DNA from: Elusimicrobia bacterium GWA2_56_46
GTDB lineage: Bacteria > Elusimicrobiota > Elusimicrobia > Elusimicrobiales > UBA9959
Assembly: GCA_001799575.1 (NCBI GenBank)
Contig: MGTT01000011.1
Location: 186,001-250,000 of the forward strand
Length of the DNA stretch: 64,000 bases
Direction: 5' to 3'
The notes beneath the pieces are model-generated. The model did no database searches, had not been told where the DNA came from, and worked only from the letters and a program-made list of their open reading frames with translations. Positions 46,801 through 59,553 of the stretch are shown one piece after another. The stretch's first letter is position 1. Every line of letters starts with the position of its first letter. A program made the position numbers and the translations under genes.

Positions 46801-49800
46801 CGTTATTCGACCAGTTGAACTGTATAACGTTCGCTCCCACATTCGTGAAATTCGTGAACAATGGCGCATTGGCAAGGGTGGACGTTGACTGGGCCGGCGT
46901 ATAACTTGTGGCTGTGCCGTTGTTATTGATGCCCGCCACACTGAAGTAATAAGTCGTGTTCGCGTTCAGCCCCGAGGAACTTAAGCCAAGATTGTAAGTG
47001 TCCGACGTGGTAACCACCGCCCCCCCCGGGTTAAGCGGATCCGGCGCGGTGGAAGAAACTACGCGGTAAAGCGTGGTGTTCAGCGGGTTGCCGTTGTTAG
47101 ACCAGTTGAATTGGATAACATTCGCTCCCACATTCGTGAAATTCGTGAATACCGGCGCATTGACCCCGGTTGGCGCGCCCTCGACCTCCGTATAGCCTGT
47201 GTCAATGCCGATATTGTTAAATCCAGCCACGCGGAAATAGTAAGTGGTGTTGGCCTTGAGGCCGGCGGAGGTAAAGTAGAGATTATATGTGTCGGACGTT
47301 GTAAACACCTCGCCATCGGGATTCAGGGGGTCGGGCGCCGTGGAAACCTCCACGCGGTACCGTGTGCCGGGGTAAGCATTGCCGTTGGCCGACCAGTTGA
47401 ACCGGATAGCCTCGGCGGAAACATCGGTGAAGTTAGTGAACACCGGCATCTTGGCCAGGGTCGAAATCGGCTGGGCCGGCGTGTAACCTGTGAGGATACC
47501 GTTATTATTGAGCCCGGCCGCCCGGAAATAGTAAGTGGTATTAGCGTTGAGGCCCGAGGAACTTAAAGACATCTTGTATGTGTCGGACGCGGTCACCACG
47601 GCCCCGTCCGGATTTAAAGGATCCGGCGCGGTGGAAGTCAGAACGCGGTAAAGCGTGATATTCAATGGGTTGCCGTTATTCGACCAGTTAAACTGGATAA
47701 CATTCGCTCCCACATTCGTGAAATTAGTGAACACCGGCGCATTGGCCCAGGTTGAAGTTGACTGGGCTGATATATAGCCGCTGGGAACGCTGTTATTATT
47801 GAGTCCGGCTACGCTGAAATAATAAGTCGTATTTGCGTTCAGCCCCGAAGAACTTAGGGCCAGATTGTAGGTGTTGGACGCAGTCACAACCGCCCCGCCG
47901 GGATTTGAGGGATCCGGCGCCGTTGAGGTTAAAACACGGTAAAGCGTGGTGTTCAATGGATTGCCGTTGTTCGACCAGTTAAACTGGATAATATTCGCTC
48001 CCACATTCGTGAAATTCGTGAACACCGGCACATTGACCCGGGTCGAGGTTGACTGGGCCGACGTATAACTGGTAAGAACAGCGTTATTATTAACCCCCGC
48101 CACGCTGAAATAATAAGTGGTATTCGCGTTCAGCCCCGAGGAACTTAGGGCCAGATTGTAGGTGCTGGACGTAGTCACTACCGCCCCGCCGGGATTTGAA
48201 GGATCCGGCGCCGTTGAAGTCAGAACGCGGTAAAGCGTGGTGTTCAATGGATTGCCGTTGTTCGACCAGTTAAACTGGATAGCATTCGCTCCCACATTCG
48301 TGAAATTCGTAAACACCGGCGCATTGGCCCAGGTGGACGTTGACTGGGCTGACGTATAACTGGTAAGAACAGCGTTATTATTAACCCCCGCCACCCGGAA
48401 GTAATAAGTCGTATTCGCGTTCAGCCCCGAGGAACTTAGGGCCAGATTGTAAGTGTTGGACGTAGTCACCACCGCGCTGCCGGGGTTAAGCGGGTCGGGC
48501 GCCGTTGACACCAGAACGCGGTAAAGCGTGGTATTCAGGGGATTGCTGTTGTTCGACCAGTTGAACTGGATGGCTCCGGCGGCAACATTAGTGAAGTTGG
48601 TAAATACCGGCGCATTGGCCCAGGTCGAGGTTGACTGCGCCGCCGTGTAACTGGTTGCGACACCGTTGTTATTAATACCTGCCACCCTGAAGTAATAAGT
48701 CGCATTCGCGTTCAGCCCGGAAGAACTTAAGGCCAGATTGTAGGTGTTAGACGTAGTCACCACCGCCCCGCCGGGATTTGAGGGATCCGGAGCGGTTGAC
48801 GTCAGGACGCGGTACAGCGTGCCCGGATAAGGATTCCCTCCTGCCGACCAGTTGAACCGGATGTCGCCCGCGCCAATATCGGTAAAGCCGGAGAATACCG
48901 GTATCCCGGCCAGGCTTGAGGTTGACTGGGCCGCCGTATAACTGGTGGGAACACCATTGTTATTAATACCCGCCACCCTGAAATAGTAAGTGGTGTTCGC
49001 ATTCAGCCCGGAGGAGCTTAAAGCCAGGTTATAGGTGTCCGAGGTGGTAACTATCGCGGCGCCGGGATCTAATGGATCCTGCGCGGTGGAAGTAAACACC
49101 CGGTAAAGAGTGGTGTTCAGCGCATTGCCGTTGTTAGACCAGTTGAACCGGATGGCCGCGGCGCCCACATTGGTAAAGTTGGCAAACACGGGCGAAAAGG
49201 CCAGCAAAGTTGAAGTTGACTGGGCCGATGTGTAACTTGTGAGGACGGCGTTATTATTAACCCCGGCCACCCTGAAGTAATAAGTCGTGTTCGCGTTCAG
49301 CCCGGAAGAACTTAAGGACAGATTGTAGGTGTTGGACGTCGTCACCACGGCTCCGCCGGGATTTGCGGGATCGGGCGCGGTGGAAGTCAGAACGCGGTAA
49401 AGCGTGGTATTCAGAGGATTTGCGTTGTTCGACCAGTTGAACTGGATGGCGCCGGCGCCCACATTCGTGAAATCAGCGAACACCGGTATATTGGCCCAGG
49501 TCGAGGTTGACTGCGCCGCGGTATAACTGGTGGAGATACCGTTATTGTTAACGCCAGCCACCCGAAAATAGTAAGTGGTGTTGCCGTTTAGCCCGGAAGA
49601 ACTTAAGAACAGATTATAAGTGTCGGATGAAGTTACCACCGCAAGGCCGGGATTAAGCGGATCCGGCGCGGTGGAAGTAAACACCCGGTAAAGCGTGGTA
49701 TTCAGCGCATTGCCGTTGTTAGACCAGTTGAACCGGATGGCCCCGGCGCCCACATTGGTAAAGTTGGTAAACACGGGCGAAAAGGCCAGCAAAGTTGAAG

Positions 49801-51724
49801 TTGACTGGGCCGACGTATAACTGGTGGGAACAGCGTTGTTGTTAATCCCGGCCACCCTGAAGTAATAAGTCGTATTCGCAGTCAATCCGGAAGAGCTTAA
49901 GGACAGATTGTATGTGTTGGACGTCGTCACCACGGCTCCGCCTGGGTTTGAGGGATCCGGCGCGGTGGAAGTCAGAACGCGGTAAAGAGTGGTATTCAGG
50001 GGATTTGCGTTGTTCGACCAGTTGAACTGGATGGCTGAAGAACCGACACCTGTGAAATTGGTGAATACAGGCATATTGGCCCAGGTCGAGGTTGACTGGG
50101 CTGACGTATAACTGGTTGTAATACCGTTATTATTGATGCCCGCCACCCTGAAATAATAAGTCGTGTTCGCGTTCAGACCCGAGGAGCTCAAGTAAATGTT
50201 GTATGTGTTCGACGTGGTCACCACCGCTCCGCCCGGGTTTGAGGGATCCGGCGCCGTAGAAGTCAACACCCGGTAAAGAGTGGCGTTAAGCGGGTTGCCG
50301 TTGTTCGACCAGTTGAACTGGATGACCGAAGAACCGACGCCGGTGAAATTGGCGAACACCGGCGGATTGGCCCAGGTTGAAGTTGACCGGGCCGCGGTAT
50401 AACCGGTGGCGACAGCGTTGTTGTTAACCCCGGCCACCCGGAAGTAATAAGTCGTATTCGCGTTCAGCCCGGAGGAACTCAGATAAAGATTGTAAGTGTT
50501 GGAAGTGGTGACTACCGCATTGCCGGGATTCAGCGGGTCCGGCGCGGTGGACGTCAGCACCCGGTAAAGCGTGGTATTAAGCGGATTGCCGTTGTTTGAC
50601 CAGTTGAACTGGATGACGGACGTGCCTACGCCGGTAAAATTGGCAAATACCGGTATATTTGCCAGAGTCGAGGTGCCCGGATACGCGGCCCAGGGGCTTG
50701 AATTATTGGGGCCGTTGGCGCGCGCAAAAAGGTAATAGGTGGTATTAGGAGCCAAGGCCGGCGTATAAATAACGGCCTCCACGTCTCCGCTAAGCGTGGT
50801 ACTGGAGGCATAAATCGGGGAAGGCGGGTTGGCGGGATTCACGGAGGCCGCCAAAGTGTAGCCGGTCGCCCCGGCGATAAGCGACCAGCCCGCTGTTACG
50901 GAGGTGACACCGACATCGGTAAGGGGAACGGTGATGGCCGGGGAGGAGATGATCATCAGCGCGATCTTCATAAAAGCGTTTATGCTGGAAGTGACGGTGG
51001 CGGTGGTATTGCCTGTCGCCCCGGCCGCCGTTTTGGCAGCGGTTATGACCGCCAGGCCTCCGCCTACGCCTGAGGTGGTTCCGGCATCGGACCATTCCGT
51101 GATGCCGGTCAGGTTCGCGTTGCTCCAGGCAGAAGCGAACGCGGCGGCCGAATCCAGATCGCGCGTCACACCCGCCACCACCAGAGTGTCGTCAACCGTT
51201 GTGGTAATGCCGGTCACATTGACCGAAACCGAAGCGGAGGCTTTCACGCCTCCGCCGGTGATATTCCACGGATCCCCGCCGGGGGTCACGCCCCGGAAAG
51301 TGAGGATCTGGGCGTAAACATGGTTGCCTGAATCCGCGACTCTTGGTGTAGCCATTGCCGAAGACGTGGCCCGGCACCAGTAAACGGCGATGCGCGTTCC
51401 GGCGGTGCCGAGGCCGGTCGCCTGCGGAGAATTCGCGACCTCAACGAATCCGGCGGGGGTAGTCAGGGAGATCGTCTGGCCGCCGGAAGACTCCACGAAC
51501 AACAGAGCGACGTCATTGATCTGATGCGCCGGCCAGGCCGGGTTCACGGAGCTGACGCCGCTGACAGCCGTTCCGGCGGCCTGGAAACGCGGCACTTCGG
51601 CGTGGACGGCAGGGGACACCGCGAAGAAAAAGGCGGACAAAGTGAGGAAAGCGGTAAAAAGCCGCCCGGAACGGAATAAACCGCTCCTGAGCCGCGCCGT
51701 TTTTTTACCCCACAGTTCTCTCAT
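34898..51724 (-). CDS. Giant secreted multi-FN3 protein with lamin-tail and PQQ-propeller domains
   Basis: 5,608 aa from ATG 51724 (a TTG at 51733 is the alternative). A signal peptide ends near residue 42 (SPAVHA-EVP). Residues about 43-260 are a unique domain. About 36 FN3-like modules of roughly 97 residues follow (about 261-3955), with cores such as IQFNWSNNGNPLNTTLYRVL, SSGLNANTTYYFRVAG and NNNGV; four to five are a second type (GATGYTLAASVNPANPPSP). A domain of about 190 residues interrupts the array (43.95-44.53 kb). After it come a sialidase-like propeller region (near 38.2-39.8 kb), two lamin-tail domains (VNEVYPSG...DDWVELYN and INEVSYG...QFIELYN) and a C-terminal PQQ-type propeller. 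It is probably a surface adhesin or polymer-binding protein. It is the second gene after the Rrf2 promoter. Confidence 0.93.
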   Translation of the reverse strand: MRELWGKKTARLRSGLFRSGRLFTAFLTLSAFFFAVSPAVHAEVPRFQAAGTAVSGVSSVNPAWPAHQINDVALLFVESSGGQTISLTTPAGFVEVANSPQATGLGTAGTRIAVYWCRATSSAMATPRVADSGNHVYAQILTFRGVTPGGDPWNITGGGVKASASVSVNVTGITTTVDDTLVVAGVTRDLDSAAAFASAWSNANLTGITEWSDAGTTSGVGGGLAVITAAKTAAGATGNTTATVTSSINAFMKIALMIISSPAITVPLTDVGVTSVTAGWSLIAGATGYTLAASVNPANPPSPIYASSTTLSGDVEAVIYTPALAPNTTYYLFARANGPNNSSPWAAYPGTSTLANIPVFANFTGVGTSVIQFNWSNNGNPLNTTLYRVLTSTAPDPLNPGNAVVTTSNTYNLYLSSSGLNANTTYYFRVAGVNNNAVATGYTAARSTSTWANPPVFANFTGVGSSVIQFNWSNNGNPLNATLYRVLTSTAPDPSNPGGAVVTTSNTYNIYLSSSGLNANTTYYFRVAGINNNGITTSYTSAQSTSTWANMPVFTNFTGVGSSAIQFNWSNNANPLNTTLYRVLTSTAPDPSNPGGAVVTTSNTYNLSLSSSGLTANTTYYFRVAGINNNAVPTSYTSAQSTSTLLAFSPVFTNFTNVGAGAIRFNWSNNGNALNTTLYRVFTSTAPDPLNPGLAVVTSSDTYNLFLSSSGLNGNTTYYFRVAGVNNNGISTSYTAAQSTSTWANIPVFADFTNVGAGAIQFNWSNNANPLNTTLYRVLTSTAPDPANPGGAVVTTSNTYNLSLSSSGLNANTTYYFRVAGVNNNAVLTSYTSAQSTSTLLAFSPVFANFTNVGAAAIRFNWSNNGNALNTTLYRVFTSTAQDPLDPGAAIVTTSDTYNLALSSSGLNANTTYYFRVAGINNNGVPTSYTAAQSTSSLAGIPVFSGFTDIGAGDIRFNWSAGGNPYPGTLYRVLTSTAPDPSNPGGAVVTTSNTYNLALSSSGLNANATYYFRVAGINNNGVATSYTAAQSTSTWANAPVFTNFTNVAAGAIQFNWSNNSNPLNTTLYRVLVSTAPDPLNPGSAVVTTSNTYNLALSSSGLNANTTYYFRVAGVNNNAVLTSYTSAQSTSTWANAPVFTNFTNVGANAIQFNWSNNGNPLNTTLYRVLTSTAPDPSNPGGAVVTTSSTYNLALSSSGLNANTTYYFSVAGVNNNAVLTSYTSAQSTSTRVNVPVFTNFTNVGANIIQFNWSNNGNPLNTTLYRVLTSTAPDPSNPGGAVVTASNTYNLALSSSGLNANTTYYFSVAGLNNNSVPSGYISAQSTSTWANAPVFTNFTNVGANVIQFNWSNNGNPLNITLYRVLTSTAPDPLNPDGAVVTASDTYKMSLSSSGLNANTTYYFRAAGLNNNGILTGYTPAQPISTLAKMPVFTNFTDVSAEAIRFNWSANGNAYPGTRYRVEVSTAPDPLNPDGEVFTTSDTYNLYFTSAGLKANTTYYFRVAGFNNIGIDTGYTEVEGAPTGVNAPVFTNFTNVGANVIQFNWSNNGNPLNTTLYRVVSSTAPDPLNPGGAVVTTSDTYNLGLSSSGLNANTTYYFSVAGINNNGTATSYTPAQSTSTLANAPLFTNFTNVGANVIQFNWSNNGNPPDITLYRVLTSTAPDPSNPVGAVVTASDTYELALSSSGLNANTTYYFSVAGINNNGAATSYTGARSTSTLLAFAPAFVNFTDVDAGAIQFNWSANGNPYPGTLFRVLTSTASDPLNPGGAVVTASDTYNLALISSGLNANASYYFIAAGLNNNGVSTAYTAVRGTSTLAVQPAGLNFTGVWEDRIQFNWSSAGNTPGTVYRVLVSTAPDPSSPDGAVVTASDTYNVYLSSSGLNSDTDYYFRAAAVNNNGILTSYTAPAAARTLPQGGIGAPLIGSITGVYVTSITANWSLVDGATGYTLAASVNSATPPSIDASSTTVGNQSISASVFEPALAANTTYYLFVRANGPGAASVWAAYPGVSTLLAFPPVFTGFTGVGEGAIQFNWSNNGNALNTTLYRVFTSTAQDPLDPGAAIVTTSDTYNLALSSSGLNANTTYYFRVAGINNNGVSTSYTAAQSTSSLAGIPVFSGFTDIGAGAIRFNWSAGGNPYPGTLYRVLTSTAPDPSNPGGAVVTASSTYNVYLTSSGLNANTTYYFRAAGFNNNGIATNYAAAEATSTLLAFAPVFANFSGVDSSAIQFNWSNNGNPLDTTLYRVLVSTAPDPSNPGGAVVTASDTYNLALSSSGLNANTTYYFTAAGLNNNGVPTANTPVQSTSTWANPPVFTEFTNVSADDMQFNWSANGNPYPGTLYRVASSTASDPLNPAGALVVMSETYDVSLILSGLASRTTYYFRAAGLNNNGILTAYSAAQSTATLPAIATKLYFQDTVSSIDPGADDERYLTRTMGAAVATYTKNTLAGTVTPPTAETQFTRVAAGTNVIWYSDPLDAVTIAGNVTFNIWARESAVQANATITAELLRADASGALQSVIASVLIPRAELTTTLAAQNWAKFPVFTVLSNGDRLAVRAYIDDGNGVTMGSGRNVTATLGGATAGVSGDSWVQVTESLAPARPVISAFTNVAARQLTAAWSLVDGATAYTLAASINPDNPPNPVYASSTTENPGATLDTPALDANTTYYLFVRSHDSKASSSWSAYPGTSTLLENAPVFTNFTDVGAGAIQFNWSANGNPYPGTLYRVAVSTAPDPLDPAGAVVTTSNTYNVYFSSAGLNADTTYYFRVAGLNNNSVPTAYTAAQGTATLVAFAPVFANFTNVSANTIQFNWSNNGNPLNTTLYRVLASTAPDPSNPGGAVVTASDTYNLALSSSGLNANATYYFQAAGINKNGIATGYTTAQGTSTWANAPVFTNFTNVAAGAIQFNWSNNGNPPDTTLYRILASTAPDPSNPGGAVVTTSDTYNLALSSSGLSANTTYYFRAAAMNSNSVLTGYTAVQGTSTWANTPVFSNFTNVAAGVIQFNWSNNGNPPDTTLYRVLASTAPDPSSPGGAVVTTSDTYNLALSSSGLSANTTYYFQAAAVNRNSVPSGYTVIQGTATLLANAPVFINFTGLTADAMQLNWSNNGNPLDTTLYRVLASTAPDPSNPGGAVVTASDTYNLALISSGLNANTTYYFRVAGLNRNYVPTSYTAARGTSTLANMPTGRYFTGITPAAIIYNWSATGNASGTRYSVLASTAPDPSAPAGAVVTASVTYNVYLSSSGLAANKAYYFQAAAVNNNGVITSYTSPPDTETTLPIGGIGAPIIGSITGVYVTSMTANWSLVTGATGYTLAASANPANPPSSIDASSTTVGNLSASVFNPALSANATYYLFVRANGPGSVSEWSAYPGTSTLLANAPVFTNFTNVAAGAIQFNWSNNGNPLNTTLYRVLASTALDPSNPGGAVVTTSDTYSLALSSSGLNANTTCYFRVAGLNNNAVPTAYTVAQGTSTWAAVPSFTGFTDISSGSMQANWSPNGNPAATTLYRVLASTAPDPSAPAGAAVTSSDTYNVYLSSAGLDVNATYYFRIAALNRNNILTGYTVAQGTSTLTRPPVFNNFTGVGAGAIQFNWLENGNPLNTTLYRVLASTAPDPSSPAGAVVTASDTYNLALSSSGLNPNTTVYFQVSGLNNNGVPTAYTTVQGTATWANIPLTAVSTFSAASATGFTAAWSGNSNPLPGTTYTVQVSTAQDFNSGAADQVTASTAPASGPAYAFTNLSINTVYYFQVRAVNHNGIYTDYAALGSTRTLTMPAPVIESITGADTNSISASWQLVNEATGYILAASVNPSNPPSPIYASSTTFGKFAVSASVFDPALAPNTTYYLFVRANGNANSSSWSAYPAASTLANLPRSSVSTFSAVADNGFSVSWDNNSNPLGATLYTVQVSTAYDFNVGASDQVTFTTAPASGPGATFSSLNIDTYYYFRVRAQHNNGGFTDWVNLGFVKTKALPVVHSGGDGVIFYGQAGNTMPQFRNYYSAGNNFSAVQNTVSGAAGSLFVIKTNPLSDKQEAVAGYVKDGTLHMLCTDGANWSEEWTQTVGGSELTRRFDIAYETNTGDVMVLYSRDAANTDELGYRIKPGSADCGSGNWSANNNLDPVRTSGVVQWVKMASDRRASSGTIAAIWADDASDLSAMVWNGTAWENEPSAALETSLEVVAVAQDVDDFDVEFESLSGDLMVVWANSAGNNGTNGVRVATAAWTGGTPLHAWGTRYSPPTFDNDATNLDLAANPNSNEMIFASIGNAAGGTSNDMQIGYWSGSAWSNNNDVDATCALPVAGSKLVAAGWLTSGVTTRWLVTYNDASATNIGWYYGTTGAPTLGNPDGTPTPLFANPQVRYDIQQDPVNKDRLIFTVADGASGTGRLFAKRLLMTSVPAFTWSNADGGAALDTSLASTTVGGFSFAFWAAAPSTTFSQSAYRFFNNTDTTDVGVPLAAQDTLAPLPSAGAAFRLRALLHTNQVDLPVDAQDFRLQVAGKGDGTCDAPSGGVPADYTDVTSATVIAFKDNAPADNTALTANAEDPQHGAHTVVNQTYEELNNSTNSVAGIQRNQDGKWDFALKDNGVFPGSVYCLRLVKGDGLLLNSYEVYPELILPALVYVNEVYPSGPSAADDWVELYNNTTSTSPLLGWKLNYVESSIALGGAPITVWTGGAGDVINAGSTFTIVNLPVDLNGGESYHVELLDAGGRLVDQVQWPGPGVLSEGQSFARITDGNPAFLEIDPTPTKNYVNYRATDTFKINEVSYGALNGQFIELYNTSLTSTRTLTGYALRNSYASANGLRFRFTKKIYPRNYALLDFSSVSDDGLSFAYVFGPAGLNGAGDFLTLEDPAGSVEDEVTWQSGASYSRYNYIGETTSVGNYAPAGAVNSIIRQPGEGADTDSNSADFAASAAATLGSRNNNPVPAPANTLAYPLNTGVPQFLARKFPISMTIGSDSSTGTANSIIFGRTGGNPDTRSPHTYRLADIGFNLASLAQQTTVQTGLSFNDQDGYPLAAGATYRVTFNTDTGTKAAPQIILGTVTYDASVHSVTASTSAPLWMNNASRDSAVKLEISNNSPAGFNSLEITTVTFKVLNSVSAPLDTVMAKNLFNAIMLVRDSTSTGIYGRYESGIDVSTIAYIPMSLISLDVNGVSTLTVLAPDLLSASIPAASTRTFYVVFESTQNASARFPDNVFRVSFNSLPTLTVRDGPSDQPEEFTPSAQVETSSITIIAPALPPEGTTWPYAPPTNTVVEAMAGYYTYDGDTSPTVSSAVYMTSTDGYLRAVKKDGTIKWAYPTDTLSPIRTSPMPVVEAGGLYLYFADDNGDVYKIRDNDSSAGLSWKKSIGAPIRSNLMCSDVSCSGDVFYFGAGDNTVRCLNKADGTPCSGWTYASAITAPISGMMAIDNRATVNTAWIGLEDGKMVALKTGDGTSPTSYQTGAAIKSSPYLDARVADPNNVLYFTSTDGKLYARISSNLSNVPAGWPAGATEPEKDYHAGAPIYTSPFVTWEETKYIFFGDDAGRLHKVNAATGLSAAGWPFQAGGAIRSFPNWLPDTVYTPQGGADYVYFGCDDGYIYAVNANTGVLRPGWPVATGGPVRADIVIDTANMTLVVGSTDGKTYVLKIGP
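45298..45650. repeat. Near-identical copy A within the FN3 array
   Basis: By eye about eight mismatches over 353 bp against 48799-49151, at an offset of 3,501 bp (1,167 codons, 12 modules), far closer than other modules are to one another. Indicates recent gene conversion or segmental duplication. Confidence 0.75.
48799..49151. repeat. Near-identical copy B within the FN3 array
   Basis: Partner of 45298-45650; the offset keeps frame exactly. Confidence 0.75.
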
Positions 51725-51746
51725 AAAAATCAAGTTCTCTCTTCTG

Positions 51747-51774
51747 CCTTTAGCCTTTAGCCTTCAGCCTTTCC
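51747..51774. repeat. Heptamer tract (CCTTTAG family) at the Rrf2 gene end, four units
   Basis: CCTTTAG, CCTTTAG, CCTTCAG, CCTTTCC. The Rrf2 stop (TAA, 51759-51757) and its last four codons are in the tract. Confidence 0.85.
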
Positions 51775-52155
51775 CTTGTCGTTTTCATTCATCATTTCTA
51801 TGATATCCTGCACGGTCAGGCCTACAAGCCAGTGATTAACCTCGTCGCGCAGGGTCTCATACAGCTTAATGGACAGCTCTTTCTTTTCCGTACCGGGCGC
51901 GCCGTTAAAAGTGAAAGCTTCCATCAGCTCCCAGACGCTTATATTGTCCAGATCCTTGCGCAGCCGGTAACCCCTGCCTTTCTGCGATTCCACGAAACCG
52001 GCGTGAACCAGCGCCTGCAAAACCTTATTGCAGTAAGGCGCGGGCAGGCCCTGAAAACGCGAGATGTCGGCCACCTGGTTCCACTGTCCGCCATTGTTCC
52101 GGCCGAGATAATGCAGACAGGCAAGTCCATAAGCGAGAGTCTTGTTCATTTTCAT
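51757..52155 (-). CDS. Rrf2-family transcriptional regulator
   Basis: 132 aa from ATG 52155 (GAGAAG five bases upstream). It has the Rrf2 winged-helix layout: LAYGLACLHYLGRNNGGQW, the recognition-helix part ADISRFQGLPAPYCNKVLQALVHAGFVES, and the wing KGRGYRLRKD. The three clustered cysteines that bind Fe-S in IscR-type proteins are absent, so it probably senses something else. It is followed after 32 bp by the giant FN3 gene. Its own promoter overlaps a perfect palindrome, so autoregulation and control of the giant gene are likely. Confidence 0.88.
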   Translation of the reverse strand: MKMNKTLAYGLACLHYLGRNNGGQWNQVADISRFQGLPAPYCNKVLQALVHAGFVESQKGRGYRLRKDLDNISVWELMEAFTFNGAPGTEKKELSIKLYETLRDEVNHWLVGLTVQDIIEMMNENDKGKAEG

Positions 52156-52185: not shown

Positions 52186-52210
52186 TCATCGGATAATTCT
52201 TATCCGATGA
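52186..52210. promoter_or_regulatory. Hairpin/palindrome in the Rrf2 leader
   Basis: TCATCGGATAA-TTC-TTATCCGATGA, 11-bp perfect arms, about 30 bp before the Rrf2 start. Could be an operator or a leader hairpin. Confidence 0.65.
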
Positions 52211-52216
52211 TAGGGC

Positions 52217-52241
52217 AAAAAATAAACAGCCGACGGCTGTT
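52217..52241 (-). terminator. Intrinsic terminator (or attenuator) before Rrf2
   Basis: Minus strand: AACAGCCG-T-CGGCTGTT followed by TATTTTTT. It lies 52 bp after the radical SAM stop but downstream of the Rrf2 promoter, so it can end the upstream operon and attenuate the Rrf2-giant transcript. Confidence 0.75.
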
Positions 52242-52248
52242 CCGTTGT

Positions 52249-52262
52249 TATAGATATCTATA
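52249..52262. promoter_or_regulatory. Palindromic operator candidate TATAGATATCTATA
   Basis: Perfect 14-nt palindrome starting at the last base of the -10 and covering the predicted transcription start. A position typical for repressor binding. Confidence 0.6.
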
Positions 52263-52289
52263 GTATACCAGATGGGCTGGCGTTGTCAA
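52262..52289 (-). promoter_or_regulatory. Strong sigma-70-type promoter for Rrf2-giant operon
   Basis: Minus strand: TTGACA (52289-52284), 16-bp spacer ending TGG, then TATACT (52267-52262). A consensus -35 and an extended -10, starting 4 bp after the radical SAM stop. Confidence 0.8.
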
Positions 52290-52293
52290 GGGG

Positions 52294-53382
52294 TTAGGGG
52301 CTTGACTTTTGATACAAAGCATTAGCCATGGCGCAGGCGGGCTTGTTGGGGGCGAAAACGTCGCCTTCCTCAATAAGACTTACGCCAGGGCAGCGGCTGC
52401 AAAAATCGATATGCGGACAGGAAGCGCATTTGCCCATTTCTTTCACGCCGACCGAACGCCATTTTTTAAGCCAGCGGGAGTTCTTCCACAGGCCGGCAAA
52501 GCGTTCGCGCTTAAGATTACCCAGTTTCACCGGCAATTGCAGGCAGGGATAAAGCTCCCCCCCGGGATCCACGGCGCAGACATTCCGGCCGGCGCCGCAG
52601 GGAAAGCCAAAGGCTGAAGGATGAAGGCTAAAGGATAAAGGGACGGAAGGGGGTGAGGGAGGCGAGGGAAGGGATGAGGGATGAGGGATGAGGGATGAAG
52701 AAAGGGAGAGGAGATTAACGGCTTTTGCGAGCTGGCGGCTGGAGAGGCGGAATTTAAGGGCGGCGTCGTCGCCGTCACTGGCCGCGGTTATTACCGGGTC
52801 GAATGAGATCCCGAAACCCTCGCGCTTCGCCAGGGCCTTCAGCCAGCCGATCTGCGGCAGGTTTGTCTTCATCAGCGGGATCTTCATCCTCACTTTTATG
52901 CCGGCTTTTTTCAGCAGGCGGGAGGCCGAAAGACTGCCCTCAAAAGACCCTTTCAGACCGGTAATAGCGTCATGAATCTGCGCGCGGCCGTAAAAACTGA
53001 TCTCAAAACCGGAAACCCCCGCTTTTTTCAACTTCAGCGCCAGCGCTCCGTCCATCCCCAGGCCGGTTGAAAAGATCCGCACGTCGAATTTAAGTTTTTT
53101 GGCGCGGGCACACAGCTCCGCCAGGTCCGGCCTGAGCAGCGGTTCCCCCCCGGTAAACACCAGGTAAAGCGCTCCGGCCTCCGCCAGTTGCGCCAGGATC
53201 TTCCCCCATTGCGCGGCCGGCAGCTCGGAACCGGGCGCGGCGCGGCCGCGCGTTTCGGGCAGGTAGCAATGCCGGCAGCTGAGCGGGCAGCGCCGGGTGA
53301 GCTCGATGGTGACCGAGACCGGAATATTGCGCTCAAGAGTGAGCGTATTAAGTTTCGCCGCCGGGGATTGTTCAGGCTGCAT
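52294..53382 (-). CDS. Radical SAM/SPASM peptide-modifying enzyme with heptamer insertion
   Basis: 362 aa. The 4Fe-4S radical SAM motif is C32-PLS-C36-RH-C39-Y; FTGGEPLLRPDL follows as the GGEP motif. A C-terminal SPASM domain has cysteines in FPCGAGRNVC, LYPCLQLP, GKCASCPHIDFCSRC and KPAC, enough for auxiliary clusters. Such enzymes form thioether or other bonds in ribosomal peptides, or act in heme/cofactor pathways. Between barrel and SPASM (about residues 225-260) a Ser/Pro-rich segment is encoded by about 13 mixed heptamers. It has no fused leader-binding domain, but a stand-alone PqqD-like protein and a small Cys peptide are encoded just upstream. It overlaps the S26 peptidase gene by 11 nt. 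Confidence 0.9.
   Translation of the reverse strand: MQPEQSPAAKLNTLTLERNIPVSVTIELTRRCPLSCRHCYLPETRGRAAPGSELPAAQWGKILAQLAEAGALYLVFTGGEPLLRPDLAELCARAKKLKFDVRIFSTGLGMDGALALKLKKAGVSGFEISFYGRAQIHDAITGLKGSFEGSLSASRLLKKAGIKVRMKIPLMKTNLPQIGWLKALAKREGFGISFDPVITAASDGDDAALKFRLSSRQLAKAVNLLSLSSSLIPHPSSLPSPPSPPSVPLSFSLHPSAFGFPCGAGRNVCAVDPGGELYPCLQLPVKLGNLKRERFAGLWKNSRWLKKWRSVGVKEMGKCASCPHIDFCSRCPGVSLIEEGDVFAPNKPACAMANALYQKSSP
52610..52699. repeat. In-frame mixed heptamer array in the radical SAM gene
   Basis: Starts AAGGCTG, AAGGATG, AAGGCTA, AAGGATA and passes into GATGAGG-type units (plus strand). mRNA sense is pyrimidine-rich and open, giving a Ser/Pro/Leu/His-rich linker. Confidence 0.9.
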
Positions 53383-53767
53383 GCGGATATTTATACGGGG
53401 ACAGACGGCGCCGGATGGCGGAATAAATACGGCCGCAGATCCCGCCGGCGAACGGATTGCGGCTCAACACCCTGCCCCGGATCCGCTCCAGGAGAACAAA
53501 ATGCGGCGCCAGCCGACCGGCGTCGTCCGCGAGCCAGACGCCATCGGACGCGGTTTTTATTACGCGGTGGAGCAGCGTGGTCCCATTGTAAGAATAGACG
53601 GCGCAATCGCCTGAAGAAAGGATGAGGGATGGGGGGATGGGGAGGGATGAGGGATGAGGGATGAGGGATGAGGATTGAGAACTGAGGGAAGAGACAAGCA
53701 CGACTTCGCCGGATTTGAATACCGGGGACATGCTGGAACCTTCAAGGCGGAAAGCCGAAGCGGCCAT
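53372..53767 (-). CDS. S24/S26-type signal peptidase-like protease
   Basis: 131 aa from ATG 53767, 5 bp after the stop of the small peptide gene. The nucleophile Ser lies in FRLEGSSMSPVFKSGEVVLV; GDCAVYSYNG and LLHRVI follow, giving His in the place where LepB has Lys, as in ER/archaeal-type S26B signal peptidases. No membrane anchor is obvious. A heptamer-encoded loop (SLIPHPSSLPIPPS) separates the Ser motif from the GD motif. It is a plausible leader peptidase for the adjacent 45-aa peptide. Confidence 0.82.
   Translation of the reverse strand: MAASAFRLEGSSMSPVFKSGEVVLVSSLSSQSSSLIPHPSSLPIPPSLILSSGDCAVYSYNGTTLLHRVIKTASDGVWLADDAGRLAPHFVLLERIRGRVLSRNPFAGGICGRIYSAIRRRLSPYKYPHAA
53617..53690. 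repeat. In-frame heptamer array in the S26 peptidase gene
   Basis: Degenerate GGATGAG/GGGATGG units around a core of four GGGATGA copies (plus strand), TCATCCC in mRNA sense. Confidence 0.88.
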
Positions 53768-53772
53768 GATTG

Positions 53773-53910
53773 TCAGGAAAACTTTTTGAGGCTTCTGCAG
53801 GCCAGCTGGTTTATGGGACCGGTAATACACTTACCGCAGGCCAGGGCCGCCGTCTCAAACACTTTTTCGGTTTTCAGTTTCGGCTTTTCGTACGGTTTTT
53901 TCTTTTTCAT
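53773..53910 (-). CDS. 45-aa Cys-containing precursor peptide (RiPP-like)
   Basis: Too short for ordinary ORF calling. The start ATG (53910-53908) overlaps the PqqD-like stop as ATGA, and the TGA stop is 5 bp before the S26 peptidase. The N-terminal half is a Lys-rich leader (MKKKKPYEKPKLKTEKVFET) and the C-terminal half (AALACGKCITGPINQLAC, then RSLKKFS) has three cysteines: C25, C28, C38. A leader with YxKPxLxxEKVFExxALACGK fits small peptides found next to PqqD/radical SAM pairs. Proposed as the substrate of the neighbouring radical SAM enzyme, with PqqD as leader binder and the S26 protease as leader peptidase. The order and coupling are seen; the product is inferred. Confidence 0.8.
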   Translation of the reverse strand: MKKKKPYEKPKLKTEKVFETAALACGKCITGPINQLACRSLKKFS

Positions 53911-54161
53911 AAAATCAGTCCGGATTTTGAAAGTTCGCCGAGAAACTCCCGCAGATCCGAGCGGGCTTCTTTTTCGCTTACTTCGAATTCGGCGAGGAGC
54001 TCCGAAATAATGCGCGGCTCGCTTTTACCGGCGGCCAGTCCCTCCCAGATGAGCGCGGCCGGGCCGTTCAGTTCGTGCAGGCGGGAGGCGGCCGCGTCCA
54101 CTATGAACAATTCTCCCGCCACGCGCCGGAAAGCCAGATTTTCCCTTATCTTTGGAGCCAT
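53907..54161 (-). CDS. PqqD-like RiPP recognition element
   Basis: 84 aa, the full PqqD length. Winged-helix pattern: LAFRRVAGELFIVDAAASRL, the hallmark HELNGPAALIWEGLA, ISELLAEFEVSEKEARSDLREFL and a terminal LSKSGLIL. PqqD-type proteins bind RiPP leader peptides and present them to radical SAM partners. It overlaps the 45-aa peptide start by 4 nt and follows the HprK-like kinase by 7 bp. No heptamer insertion. Confidence 0.9.
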   Translation of the reverse strand: MAPKIRENLAFRRVAGELFIVDAAASRLHELNGPAALIWEGLAAGKSEPRIISELLAEFEVSEKEARSDLREFLGELSKSGLIL

Positions 54162-54168
54162 AGACAGA

Positions 54169-54999
54169 TTATATAAGATTTAAAAATCCGGCGTCCTTGT
54201 TTGTGAATTCAAGCCGCGCAAACTCCGCCCCGGCCAGCAGCGCCGCCGCATTATCCAGCGCCGCGGCGGAAGTTTCCGTGCTTTTGGAAAAATTCATCAG
54301 GCATCTGAGCAGCAGCCGGAGGGCCTCCCCGGGAACCGCGGCTGAAATCTTATTCCGCTTCGCCTTTTTCAGGATAAACACCTTCGCCAGGGGCCAGACT
54401 CCCTGGCGGCCTTCGTTGCGCATCTCACCCCAGAATGGCGAGCCGTAAACCACGAACCGGCCCTTTTCAAAACGCACAAGGTTCAGCTCGTCGCTGATAA
54501 CTTCAGCCCCGGGGGAGGGATGAGGGATGAGGGATGAGGGATGAGGAACAAAAGCCGCGAGCTTGGAGAGCGTGGATTTGCCTGCGCCCGATTTTCCCAG
54601 GAACAGACACGCTTTTCCGCCTTTCAGCAGCCCCGCGCTATGCAGGAGCATCCCTCCCTCGCGCAAAAGAGCCCAACTGTAAAAAGAACGCAGAAAAGAA
54701 TCAAAAGTCTGTACGCGCAGCGCTGCCTTGAGAACGCCAGAACCCGTCTTCAAATCCAAAACACAGTCAAAGTCCCCCCGCTTCAGACGCAGGATCCCGC
54801 GCTCCTCCCTTACAGCGGGCCTGAACGGCGCCTGGGAACCGGGGATGGAAAGCGCAGAAAAGCGGTAAAAGGGCGCTGCTGCGGCCGGAAATTTTTCATA
54901 GCGCCGCGCCACAAGCCCGCGGAAAGCGGCCTCCGGAAAGTCAAAAGCGGCCGCCAGGCCCGCGGTTTCAAAGAACACCGGAGCCGGCCGCGCCGTCAC
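54169..54999 (-). CDS. HprK-like kinase of a PqqD/radical SAM cluster
   Basis: 276 aa from GTG 54999 (GTGA overlap with the pilin-like gene's stop). The C-terminal half resembles the HPr kinase catalytic domain: MLLHSAGLLKGGKACLFLGK, Walker A LGKSGAGKST, then ISDELNLV as the second metal-binding motif, FVVYGSPFWGEM and LAKVFILKKA. It has no HPr-binding N-terminal domain. HprK-related kinases with PqqD proteins are known from several peptide-modification loci; the target is unknown. Residues between Walker A and ISDE include a heptamer-encoded FVPHPSSLIPHPSPG. Confidence 0.82.
   Translation of the reverse strand: MTARPAPVFFETAGLAAAFDFPEAAFRGLVARRYEKFPAAAAPFYRFSALSIPGSQAPFRPAVREERGILRLKRGDFDCVLDLKTGSGVLKAALRVQTFDSFLRSFYSWALLREGGMLLHSAGLLKGGKACLFLGKSGAGKSTLSKLAAFVPHPSSLIPHPSPGAEVISDELNLVRFEKGRFVVYGSPFWGEMRNEGRQGVWPLAKVFILKKAKRNKISAAVPGEALRLLLRCLMNFSKSTETSAAALDNAAALLAGAEFARLEFTNKDAGFLNLI
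54517..54544. repeat. In-frame heptamer array in the HprK-like kinase, four units
   Basis: (GGGATGA)x4 on plus, TCATCCC in mRNA sense, right after the Walker A helix. Confidence 0.95.
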
Positions 55000-56252
55000 G
55001 GAAGCGCGGCAGGCCACGGGGTAAGGGTATCCTGCCAGGACTGGCGCACGAGGTTAATGTTGGTGGTTATGATGCCGGCAGCGATGTCGGGGTCATAATA
55101 CACTCTGCAATGAGAATTGGAATTTATGTCCGCGGTGCCGTTAACGACTATGGCTCCGTGCAGCAGGTCATCGCTGCCGCCGCCGTTGGGGAGCTTCAGA
55201 TCGCCGCCCACATATACTAAGCCGTGTATGGCTGGATTGATGGATTTAACAAGATTTGGCCGGTAGCTGGTATTAATATTTCCGAAGCAGGCCGGAGTCG
55301 CGACCGGCAGAGTCGGATCGAAATTGGTCCGGTAGTAGGCCCAGTCATTGCAGTACTGCTTCCAGGCTTCCGGCGGAACCGTCGCGTTATAGGCTCCCAC
55401 CGTGGGCTGGCTCCCGTTCGAAAAAGTAAGATTGCCTATGACGATAATATTGCCTTTGATCGCGCTTCTGAAATCGGTCCAGTTGCCCTCGATATAATAA
55501 GTCTTCCCGTTAAGCGAGTCGCAGTTGGTACTCCAGTTGCCAGGCTGGTAGTAAGCGTGCCCGCAGGGATCGTTGCCGGCGGCGATGGCGGAACTCTTAT
55601 AGTCGGAAAAACTTATCGACGGCATGGGCGGGAGCGCGGCGTAGTAGGAATGCCACCACCAGCAGTTGGGGGAGTCGCAGTTATTCCCTCCCGGGCCGTC
55701 GGTATCCTTGTCTATTCCCGCGGCGCTCCAGTAGGAGGGATGCAGCTTGCCTAAAATTGAGATCGCCCGGGGGCTGGAAACGGAGCCCCACTCCACCTCT
55801 ATATTATTCCCGTTCATCGTGACGCCCTTGGCCGCCGCTATGCTGACGTCGCTCATGAGGGAGTTGGCGTAAACGGCTTTCAGCGCGCGCGTCTCCCCGT
55901 TCTTTTTATCGCGCCCCACCCCTATAATGGTCACCTCCCCTAAATTCGGGCCGCTGGTCACGGAAACAGCGTAAGAGCCGCCGGCCAGATCGGTAAACGA
56001 AAAGTTAAAGGCCATTCCGGGAAGGGCCTGGCCCGCCTGCACGGCCGCCCACGTCTGCGTAGACTCTATCACTTTCTGATAGCCGCGCTCCAGCGCCCCC
56101 TCCGCAAGCTGGAAAGCGTTGGTGTTCTGCCCCTGCTTCACGCTCCATTTGGTCTCATTCTGCACGTACATTACCAGGATCGGCAGGATTATGGCCAGCA
56201 CCGCCACCAGCAGAATAGCCCCCGCTAAAAGCTGCCCCTCGCGTGTTTTCAT
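54996..56252 (-). CDS. PilX-like pilus assembly protein
   Basis: 418 aa. An N-terminal membrane helix (about 8-29, LLAGAILLVAVLAIILPILVM) without the Gly-Phe/Tyr-xxx-Glu prepilin site, then a helical stretch and FQLAEGALERGYQKV as in PilX N-domains. A C-terminal Cys- and Trp-containing domain (about 160-410) has no match I recognise; it carries CDSPNCWWWHSYYAA and several NGT/NNxx stretches. It overlaps the upstream prepilin gene by 1 nt and the downstream HprK-like gene by 4 nt. Confidence 0.78.
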   Translation of the reverse strand: MKTREGQLLAGAILLVAVLAIILPILVMYVQNETKWSVKQGQNTNAFQLAEGALERGYQKVIESTQTWAAVQAGQALPGMAFNFSFTDLAGGSYAVSVTSGPNLGEVTIIGVGRDKKNGETRALKAVYANSLMSDVSIAAAKGVTMNGNNIEVEWGSVSSPRAISILGKLHPSYWSAAGIDKDTDGPGGNNCDSPNCWWWHSYYAALPPMPSISFSDYKSSAIAAGNDPCGHAYYQPGNWSTNCDSLNGKTYYIEGNWTDFRSAIKGNIIVIGNLTFSNGSQPTVGAYNATVPPEAWKQYCNDWAYYRTNFDPTLPVATPACFGNINTSYRPNLVKSINPAIHGLVYVGGDLKLPNGGGSDDLLHGAIVVNGTADINSNSHCRVYYDPDIAAGIITTNINLVRQSWQDTLTPWPAALP

Positions 56253-56746
56253 CAGTTCATTATCCTCACTTTCTGGATCGAAAGCTGCAACGCCTTTTTC
56301 CCGCCGCGATAAGTCGCCGACTGCGCCGTTATAGCCACGGAAAGCAGCGTTATATCGTCGCTGCGCGGGTAAATGAAAGAGATGTAGGCGAGATTTTCCG
56401 TCAGCATCGTAACCTTGCCGGACATGCTCATATACAGTTTATTCCCGCTCTGGTAAAACGAAACTACCGGCCCCTGCACGCTGGTGAAAGTCACGCGCGA
56501 GGCCGGCGGCTGACCCGGCTCCGCGTCGATCACCACGGTGGAACTTTTGGCCTGCCTGGCGAAGCGGTTTATTATATCCAGGCTGCCGCGCACGTCGCGC
56601 TGGATAGCGTTCCTGGCCGTGGTCTGCCGCCAGAAATTGGTCATCTGCATCAGCAGCGGCACGGCCATGCCGCCCACCACCCCCAGGATGGCTACGGTCA
56701 TCATCACCTCAACAAGCGTGTACCCCTTTTTAGGTTTCATGGCCAT
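56252..56746 (-). CDS. PilW-like type IV prepilin
   Basis: 164 aa. The prepilin cleavage site is KKG|YTLVEVMMTVAILGVVGG, with Glu at +5 and a short leader. GGGAAG lies eight bases before ATG 56746; an ATG two codons later forms an ATGA overlap with the previous stop. The C-terminal pseudopilin domain is short and mainly beta. It is coupled to the genes on both sides. Confidence 0.87.
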   Translation of the reverse strand: MAMKPKKGYTLVEVMMTVAILGVVGGMAVPLLMQMTNFWRQTTARNAIQRDVRGSLDIINRFARQAKSSTVVIDAEPGQPPASRVTFTSVQGPVVSFYQSGNKLYMSMSGKVTMLTENLAYISFIYPRSDDITLLSVAITAQSATYRGGKKALQLSIQKVRIMN

Positions 56747-59481
56747 GAAAAATTCTTCCCTGTCACCTCCGCGCCGGCGCCCACTGAAATGGTGGAGGAA
56801 CTTTTGCTGGTATAGCTTACGGAGCCGGTCTTAACGTCCACCACGGGGTAAAAAGCCCGCACATAATAGGTGGAGGTGGTGCTTGAGCGCACCTCCAGGC
56901 TGTAAGTACCGTCCGACTTGCTGGAAACGGAATATAAAATAGCCTGGGCCGGCGCCGAAGAAGCGTAAATGGTGTTTAACGGGCTGGGAACCGCGGCCGT
57001 GCTGGCCACCACCAGAACGCCGGTGGTGATGGGCGCGCCGTCATAACTGACGCTGCCGCTGATGGTGCCCAGCGCGCCGATAACGGTTATGGTTCCGGCG
57101 AAAACGGTGGCCCCGGCGGTGGTGACGCTGGAAACCAGCGGGTAAGAGGGGACGGAAGTGTAGCCCTGGAGGGGGTCAAGCTCCGGGGTCACGGTGTAGG
57201 CCACGGAAGAGGTGGCGGCGAAAATGTAGAAATATCCGGTGCTGTCCGTGGTGTCCTCGTAAACCGGCCCGCCGTTGGAAGCCCGCACCGGAATATTCGG
57301 GATCGCGCCGGTTCCCGAAGTAACATAGCCTTTCAGGTATCCGCCTTTTGCCAGGTGAAAATCCGGGATATTGGAGACGACCCCCTGCAGAATCGTGGCG
57401 ACATTATCGCTGGTGGTGTAATTCCCGTCGTTCGAATTGTAGTTCGCGGTGATCACCGCTGTGCCGGTAGATACCGGGAGGAAGTACCAGCCCTGCGAAT
57501 CGGTAGTGGTATAATTCCCATCCGAAGAACCCACCCTTTTTCCGCCAAGCCGGGTCCAGTAATCCGGGCCGGCGCCATATACATATCCGGAAGCCAGGCC
57601 GCCGGTATACGTAGAGGATAAAAGCATATAACTGAAGCCGGAAACCGGCCAGGAAGACACGGTTATACCGTTGGGCACGCTTGTGCTGACGTTCTGGAGC
57701 ACAGTGACGCTTGAGATGGTGGCCAGATAATCGCCGTATATAGCCGTCACTTTCCAGACGCCGGTGGACACCCCCACGATGGTGAACGACGAGTACGGGC
57801 AGGTCTGCCCCTGCGGGCCCGTGACGTAACCGCTGGACGACCGCACCGCGTAGGAATTACCGTCGTCGGCGAAAACATAAGCCGACAAAGCGGGTACGCC
57901 GGAAAGGACGGCCTGTTTCGGACTGGCCGAACTGAAAGGCCTGTAATTTATCCCGACCGCGACACCGGTGTTGTAATAAAAATTATTCAGATTGTCCCCG
58001 CTGTCGTAGGCCCTGCCGTAGCTCGTCCCGACCGCACAGGGGGTTGAGAACCTTACCAACTGGTCGTTCCGGTTTAAACCGCCGGGCAAAGAAATGCAGC
58101 CTGTCTCGCATTGGCCCGGAATGCTGGCGGCGCTATTGTTGGTCCAGCCGACCGCGTCAAGCGTGGAGCCGGAACTGTCCGTAAGCCATACCGTACCGCT
58201 GCGGTTATACATCAGAATCGGCTTCTCGTAAGGTAAAAGCCAGAGATAGCCGGGGACGCTGGTGTTTGAGCAGGCGGTGTTTGCGGTGTCGGTATAGTAG
58301 GCATCCGCCGTAATAGCTAAGCCGTTCACCGTAAAGCCGCTGGTATTAGCAATGAGGTAATACCCGCCCGAGACCGCAAAAGTTGAAACATAAGTAAGAG
58401 GTATGTCAGTGCACACCTGGTCGGGGCTCGGATATTTGCTGGTAAAGTTAAGATTTATCGAGTGCGAAACCGCATCCCCTATGTTTATGGGCGCCGGGGT
58501 CGGATTGAACAGTTCTATGTACTGAACGTCTACGCCGCTCACCTGCACTGTAGAGGCCACGACCTGGCTGATGACCAGGCTGGGGTTTATAGCGTAAAGA
58601 CTGTCGGAGCCCACCGTGCCGGAAGCTATGCGGACAATGGAAAAATCCTTGGGCGTATAGTTGCCGTCGGAAACAAAAAGACTGGTGCTTGTGGTCTGGG
58701 GAAAAAATCCGGCCGAGGAACAGACAAGCGTATATGACCCCGGGGCCACCTGGAAACTATAGTTGCCGCCGGAGTCGGAATAGCCGCGCCATTTCGGAAC
58801 GCCAGCCACCTGGACAAGGACGCCGCCGGCCGGAGAACCGCCCTCCCTTATCACGCCGCGGAAGCCTGCGCTTAGGGTGGCCGCGCTGGGATTCTGGTAA
58901 TAGCTGTCCAGTTGGACTTTTCTATTTTCGCCCCGATCCGTCCAGAAAACATACACCGTGATCTTTTTCATCCCGGGATCGGAGTAGCTGTACGGGACGG
59001 TGGAAATATTGCTGCCGGACACCGAAGCATAATCGACATTTACGGCGCGCGTCAAAGCGGGCATCCCCCACAACGTTATGGTTTCCGGGGGATAATTGTT
59101 GGAATCGTAAACAAAGTTCGTGGTGAAACCGGAGCTCACCACGGGGGCGGTGGTAACCATAAGCTGAAAATAGGACTTATTTTTCAGCACCTCCATTTTT
59201 TCCTGGGCCAGATTCGTGGCTATGCTCTTAAGCCGGGACTGCGCCAGTGCCACGTTTATGTATTTAAAACTGCCCATGGCCGCCACCACGCCTATGGTAA
59301 TTACGGCCATGGCGATCATAAGTTCGGCCAGCGAAAATCCGCCGCGGGCCGGCAAGGGATGAGGGATGAGGGATGAGGGATGAGGGACAACGGGGGAGGG
59401 GAGATTTTTACACGGTTCGTAGCCGCTGCCCCCGTAGGATATCCGGCGCGGATTAAAATGTTCTTTCAGTAGGCGAATCAT
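56737..59481 (-). CDS. Large prepilin-type protein with carboxypeptidase-like, lamin-tail and Cys domains
   Basis: 914 aa from ATG 59481 (an ATG in the heptamer array at 59490 is the alternative). The prepilin site ARGG|FSLAELMIAMAVITIG is preceded by an unusual leader of about 45 residues, partly heptamer-encoded (VVPHPSSLIPHPLP). After the pilin helix (to about 85) come a pilin-like part, a carboxypeptidase-regulatory-like repeat (GVIREGGSPAGGVLVQVAG), a lamin-tail-like domain (VDVQYIELFNPTPAPINIG) and further beta-sandwich modules (SGSVSYDGAPITTG). Such a long tail makes it a candidate pilus-tip adhesin. It opens an operon that runs into the RiPP-like genes. Confidence 0.85.
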   Translation of the reverse strand: MIRLLKEHFNPRRISYGGSGYEPCKNLPSPVVPHPSSLIPHPLPARGGFSLAELMIAMAVITIGVVAAMGSFKYINVALAQSRLKSIATNLAQEKMEVLKNKSYFQLMVTTAPVVSSGFTTNFVYDSNNYPPETITLWGMPALTRAVNVDYASVSGSNISTVPYSYSDPGMKKITVYVFWTDRGENRKVQLDSYYQNPSAATLSAGFRGVIREGGSPAGGVLVQVAGVPKWRGYSDSGGNYSFQVAPGSYTLVCSSAGFFPQTTSTSLFVSDGNYTPKDFSIVRIASGTVGSDSLYAINPSLVISQVVASTVQVSGVDVQYIELFNPTPAPINIGDAVSHSINLNFTSKYPSPDQVCTDIPLTYVSTFAVSGGYYLIANTSGFTVNGLAITADAYYTDTANTACSNTSVPGYLWLLPYEKPILMYNRSGTVWLTDSSGSTLDAVGWTNNSAASIPGQCETGCISLPGGLNRNDQLVRFSTPCAVGTSYGRAYDSGDNLNNFYYNTGVAVGINYRPFSSASPKQAVLSGVPALSAYVFADDGNSYAVRSSSGYVTGPQGQTCPYSSFTIVGVSTGVWKVTAIYGDYLATISSVTVLQNVSTSVPNGITVSSWPVSGFSYMLLSSTYTGGLASGYVYGAGPDYWTRLGGKRVGSSDGNYTTTDSQGWYFLPVSTGTAVITANYNSNDGNYTTSDNVATILQGVVSNIPDFHLAKGGYLKGYVTSGTGAIPNIPVRASNGGPVYEDTTDSTGYFYIFAATSSVAYTVTPELDPLQGYTSVPSYPLVSSVTTAGATVFAGTITVIGALGTISGSVSYDGAPITTGVLVVASTAAVPSPLNTIYASSAPAQAILYSVSSKSDGTYSLEVRSSTTSTYYVRAFYPVVDVKTGSVSYTSKSSSTISVGAGAEVTGKNFSWP
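59356..59383. repeat. In-frame heptamer array in the prepilin leader, four units
   Basis: (GGGATGA)x4 on plus, TCATCCC in mRNA sense, encoding PHPSSLIPHP just before the prepilin cleavage site. Confidence 0.95.
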
Positions 59482-59483
59482 AT

Positions 59484-59553
59484 CCCTCATCCCTCATCCC
59501 TCATCCCTCATCCCTCATCCCTCATCCCTCATCCCTCATCCCTCATCCCTCAT
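59484..59553. repeat. Perfect heptamer array, (CCCTCAT)x10
   Basis: 70 bp between the Spy-like stop (59556) and the prepilin start (59481). GGGATGA in mRNA sense; it supplies the purine tract before the prepilin start. Confidence 0.97.

Follow-up and report, generated by a model that had tools for sequence, protein, structure and literature searches.

What does an intrinsic terminator do between the promoter and the start codon of an Rrf2-family regulator gene, and at which of two neighbouring palindromes would that regulator bind? Both questions are raised by a leader in Elusimicrobia bacterium GWA2_56_46 (genome of 2.66 Mb), which is closely related to other Elusimicrobia MAGs that in many cases come from groundwater. 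Within the window, as we call the whole 64-kb stretch of DNA that was analysed, the minus strand carries, in this order, a promoter, TATAGATATCTATA, a hairpin with T6, a 7-nt spacer, the CATCGGATAAGAATTATCCGATG palindrome, the Rrf2-family gene and a giant ORF, at the following positions:

52284–52289, minus strand: -35 hexamer TTGACA, read in the window; TTGAC[AT] is conserved in orthologous leaders.
52262–52267, minus strand: -10 hexamer TATACT with TGG ahead of it, read in the window; TGCTATACTAT is conserved in leaders.
52249–52262, no strand: first palindrome, TATAGATATCTATA, not conserved and probably not an operator.
52224–52242, minus strand: terminator hairpin, GAACAGCC-GTC-GGCTGTTT, its structure kept by covariation in orthologues.
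52217–52222, minus strand: T6 run of the terminator, read in the window, with one A between stem and T6.
52210–52216, minus strand: 7-nt spacer from T-run to operator, conserved in length, not in sequence.
52187–52209, no strand: probable Rrf2 operator, CATCGGATAAGAATTATCCGATG; consensus CATYGGAYA-N5-TRTCCRATG across leaders.
51757–52155, minus strand: Rrf2-family regulator gene, 132 aa, from ATG 52155; alternative start at ATG 52167.
34898–51733, minus strand: giant gene, 5611 aa from TTG 51733, with an in-frame ATG at 51721; FN3 repeats, lamin-tail domains and a beta-propeller.

The promoter, TTGACA-N16-TATACT at 52289–52262 with TGG before the -10, gives 11 of 12 matches. An earlier, sequence-only reading of this DNA had described it as a promoter with an extended -10, and it is indeed found in the window and conserved ahead of orthologous rrf2 genes. 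Transcription is predicted to start near 52255, about 7 nt past the -10. The 14-bp TATAGATATCTATA (52249–52262) is located directly at the -10/start region and had been taken for the operator in that reading. We rejected this candidate: its length is unremarkable and expected by chance, since the window holds 14 inverted repeats with 7-bp arms and no spacer, and it is not conserved among leaders, its GATATC core being present in 6 of 34, mostly as ATTGATATCAA(T). The downstream palindrome, in contrast, is conserved and co-occurs with the regulator. A GATATC-centred inverted repeat just past the -10 was observed in leaders L068, L076, L078, L079 and L081 as well as at 52249–52262 in the window; the recurring repeat could be part of an initial transcribed sequence passed on by descent, or else a lineage-specific element of weak effect.

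The product of the regulator gene matched the Rrf2 family profile PF02082 at 65.8 bits (cut-off 30) and NCBIfam TIGR00738 at 68.6 bits, slightly below the 73.3 cut-off of that model, and its matches in the PDB are RsrR, CymR and IscR type proteins. The start at ATG 52155 is supported by orthologues. C13 (invariant) and C42 are the only conserved cysteines in the alignment of these proteins (A1); the three C-terminal cysteines of Fe-S sensing regulators of the IscR/NsrR type are missing, none being conserved after C42. Just one other Rrf2 gene in the genome scores over the cut-off (L002, G000:C18:24491-24847). Its product carries the three cysteines of the Fe-S type, and the next gene looks like one for a hybrid-cluster protein, which is the pattern to be expected of an NsrR-type nitric oxide regulator.

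Orthologues of the regulator (54–89% identity) were found in 21 other genomes among 36 family relatives, with a more distant copy in one, and 40 homologous loci were drawn from GTDB genomes. The same order of elements recurs in about 40 leaders: a TTGAC[AT] / TGCTATACTAT promoter, a hairpin with a T-run, CATYGGAYA-N5-TRTCCRATG and rrf2. The sequence-only reading had reported a second perfect palindrome at 52186–52210, before the Rrf2 start; it is present as TCATCGGATAA-GAA-TTATCCGATGA with 11-bp arms, CATCGGATAAGAATTATCCGATG being one base shorter on each side, and it is conserved in the leaders. Arms of at least 11 bp at spacers of 0–8 occur at just two other loci in the window. Of the 23 family genomes with a copy of the gene, 22 contain the operator at no more than one mismatch, and all 14 genomes lacking the gene are without it (the lone exception, G017, has only a diverged regulator copy, which is without this leader). 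These data point to the second palindrome as the likely operator of the Rrf2 regulator. The gene behind an Fe-S type Rrf2 paralogue has near-identical palindromes 5' of its -35 and across its -10, a finding in favour of an Rrf2 protein as the ligand. The operator might also serve some protein other than this Rrf2.

The operator occurs about once per genome; genomes with a duplicated gene, such as G005, have two. Given this number, and with other matches (2–3 mismatches) near the control level, we rejected a wider regulon. Downstream of the Fe-S type paralogue at L031, L032 and L143 we observed two GGAC-N7-GTCC palindromes, one just past the paralogue's terminator (5–9 nt from the T-run) and the other over the -10 of the next gene; they are likely a classical Rrf2 operator pair with nearly the same half-site.

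The minus-strand terminator extends from 52242 to 52217, comprising the stem (52242–52224), an A and a T6 that ends at 52217. A terminator scan of the region alone gave chance level (5 found vs 5.7 expected), and the case for this terminator lies in its conservation in the leaders, not in the scan. In 37 of 40 leaders the hairpin, directly followed by the T-run, is stabler than its dinucleotide-shuffled versions (z < -1); the T-run, searched up to 16 nt from the palindrome, is present in 40 of 41, L098 being the sole leader without one. Since AT, GC, CG and TA pairs replace one another between species along the stem, with many pair types at each position, it is the structure rather than the sequence of the hairpin that is kept by covariation, consistent with an intrinsic terminator, as the sequence-only reading had called it. 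That reading had also raised attenuation. Regulated premature termination stands as the most likely function, but attenuation of the RNA type is unlikely: no competing antiterminator is visible in the leader, where just about 20 nt of non-conserved sequence precede the hairpin, the stem sequences are not conserved, an Rfam search of the leader returned no family match, and no conserved sensing or antiterminator structure of an RNA attenuator or riboswitch was found.

We propose that the leader is an operator-gated intrinsic terminator by which Rrf2 would repress itself and the giant FN3-repeat gene about 40 nt into the transcript, a reading to which we assign a probability of roughly 0.55. The arrangement suggests that the bound regulator decides whether RNA polymerase stops at the terminator or continues. 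A transcript beginning near 52255 would meet the hairpin and T-run within about 40 nt. A dimer of the Rrf2 protein encoded downstream would bind the 23-bp palindrome that starts 7 bp past the T-run and act as a roadblock, halting the polymerase while its active site is within the T-run; the hairpin would then release the halted polymerase, silencing both the regulator and the giant gene (autorepression). Were a signal to take the regulator off the DNA, some or most polymerases would read through, and rrf2 and the giant surface-type gene would be transcribed.

Counted from the predicted start, the operator spans roughly +46 to +68, inside the transcribed region and too far downstream for simple promoter occlusion. 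With EcoRI E111Q, a tight roadblock, the active site of RNA polymerase stalls 12–13 nt before the site (PMC3913778). The position 12–13 nt back from 52209 is 52221–52222, the first two T of the T-run, so that, if the EcoRI geometry applies, a bound Rrf2 dimer would hold the polymerase approximately at the release point of the terminator. A hard roadblock might, alternatively, stop the polymerase a little early, before the hairpin can be completed. In several species the start codon comes just 11–14 nt after the operator. A further promoter would not fit in between, so that transcription of rrf2 has to cross the terminator. The broader view, that this is a composite part in which a repressor placed exactly 7 bp past the T-run sets terminator efficiency, conserved in several families of the phylum and serving to control a giant secreted protein, has in our judgement about even odds. 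In the open-access papers searched, no relevant report was found on a terminator-operator composite, on Rrf2 with a roadblock or on Rrf2 in Elusimicrobia, and as far as that literature goes the composite has not been described before.

The proposal turns on the spacing between terminator and operator, a coupling that the sequence-only reading had missed. The last T and the palindrome are separated by 7 nt in 33 of 40 leaders, by 9 nt in four, by 8 nt in two and by 6 nt in one, although the leaders share ancestry and these counts are not independent trials. The stronger argument, in our view, is the internal contrast with neighbouring distances: that from the -10 to the operator varies from 38 to 77 nt in leaders with a terminator and that from the operator to the start codon from 11 to 372 nt, the sequence of the 7-nt spacer is not conserved across genera, and the hairpin drifts in both sequence and length. 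Four leaders from other families of the class (L136, L138, L139 and L140; about 35–40% protein identity) have T8, exactly 7 nt and altered palindromes, and the diverged paralogous group L105–L107 has T8, exactly 7 nt and then its own palindrome variant. Among the 242 runs of at least five T in the window, this one and one other are followed after 3–12 nt by an inverted repeat with arms of at least 8 bp, and no second clear terminator-operator case was seen in the 64 kb. Across 340 genomes of the phylum, a search for a T-run, 7 nt and a relaxed palindrome returned mainly rrf2 leaders, the remainder being near the control level. In L068, L072, L087, L096 and L098, 200–370 nt of partly repetitive sequence separate the operator from the rrf2 start codon; the terminator-operator unit is intact upstream of these stretches in all but L098.

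Alternatively, control could be independent and additive, with the terminator as a constitutive damper, an ordinary roadblock or promoter-proximal Rrf2 repressor beside it, and the spacing an old arrangement rather than a sign of coupling. We consider this possible but doubtful. An operator about 6 nt after the start is in the usual position for a repressor. L098 (G008:C112), whose operator is sited about 6 nt past the presumed start and is without a terminator, agrees with repression on that ground and fits additive control, as do L134 (G169:C55) and L135 (G167:C198), from two other families, which have tandem operators 5' of the promoter and lack a terminator. Since these two leaders carry their operators there, the terminator-operator device is one variant found in the phylum rather than a universal feature of it, and the regulator can, judging from such layouts, work without a terminator. 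Terminators of the GraL type, equally near the start, end about two thirds of transcripts (PMC6829880), which also favours a simple damper. Additive control does not, however, account well for 7 nt being kept while spacer sequence, hairpin length and the other distances drift, even at 35–40% protein identity.

A fixed distance would also be obtained if the T-run belonged to an extended DNA-binding site, as an A-tract that the regulator touches or bends; contact would then set the 7 nt, and the hairpin would be secondary. L134, where a T6 lies exactly 7 nt from the operator on the other strand, is consistent with such a site. We regard it as improbable nonetheless, because the operators of L135 and L098 have no such T-run, those of the Fe-S paralogue stand at distances of 5–9 nt, and a covarying hairpin in the sense direction directly ahead of the T-run would be left unexplained.

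The window palindrome can fold into an 11-bp hairpin just ahead of the gene, raising the possibility that it is an RNA element, be it a second hairpin in RNA attenuation, a determinant of mRNA stability or a ribosome site. At the two variable positions of the palindrome, C.A combinations (22) exceed U.G (10), whereas an RNA hairpin would prefer U.G; the palindrome thus looks like a DNA operator, kept in sequence and under no constraint to pair as RNA. Together with a start-codon distance that ranges over 11–372 nt and the lack of an Rfam match, this makes an RNA element very unlikely. That the terminator simply ends the upstream operon while the promoter fires through it, as the sequence-only reading had offered, is scarcely plausible: a radical SAM/SPASM gene does finish just upstream in many genomes, but the promoter lies 5' of the terminator in every leader in which both are recognisable, and the leader stays with rrf2 under a different upstream gene in L088, L090, L092 and L102.

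Roadblocks and intrinsic terminators are normally treated separately. The operator-gated terminator proposed here would resemble the roadblocks of LacI, PurR, GalR, CcpA and CodY in having its operator in the transcribed leader, where the bound repressor is expected to stop the elongating polymerase; there, Mfd is a main remover of the stalled polymerase, possibly with Rho (PMC4132739, PMC10310618 for the roadblocks and Mfd), whereas here an intrinsic terminator stands at a fixed distance before the operator. Like GraL in the greA leader of E. coli, a promoter-proximal terminator with feedback (PMC6829880), it lies about 20–40 nt from the start and ahead of a gene whose product would feed back on termination, but GreA acts on RNA polymerase and no operator takes part. 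As in the TRAP-controlled attenuation of trp in Bacillus subtilis (PMC3913778), a regulatory protein is proposed to raise termination in the leader; unlike TRAP, which binds RNA in a system with a competing antiterminator, the site here behaves as DNA and no antiterminator was seen in the leader. A probable palindromic operator before the regulator's own gene is shared with the autoregulated Rrf2 regulators IscR, NsrR and CymR. In the IscR and NsrR systems the operators are at the promoter, whereas here a terminator precedes the operator, which spans roughly +46 to +68, and the regulator lacks the Fe-S cysteines.

The giant ORF starts 23 bp after the end of the Rrf2 gene at 51757, at TTG 51733 or ATG 51721, and is presumably co-transcribed with it. 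Its product contains FN3 repeats, lamin-tail domains and a C-terminal beta-propeller, and in most loci, distant families included, the gene after rrf2 encodes a large protein of the secreted type. Upstream, many genomes encode pilin-like, HprK-like, PqqD-like, signal-peptidase-like and radical SAM/SPASM proteins. In the window, a conserved cluster at 52294–56746 that encodes all these types, the HprK-like one being HprK/ScmC-like, adjoins the regulator and the giant gene; its content suggests peptide modification linked to secretion. Short repeats of the CATCCCT type (SSLIPHPSSL when translated) were observed at 52668–52694 and in the ORFs 52294–53382, 53372–53830, 54169–55017 and 56737–59490. 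Several unrelated proteins thus carry them in frame, which looks like the insertion of a mobile or expanding repeat that left the coding sequence unbroken.

The open-access literature searched held nothing on the regulation of the giant FN3-repeat proteins of Elusimicrobia. If the operator-gated terminator is real, such a natural part would show that bacteria join roadblock and terminator, at a fixed spacing, into one switch that both stops and releases RNA polymerase, perhaps without Mfd or Rho, and it would provide a simple design rule for repressible terminators. For the organisms themselves, the element that controls these giant proteins would be identified.
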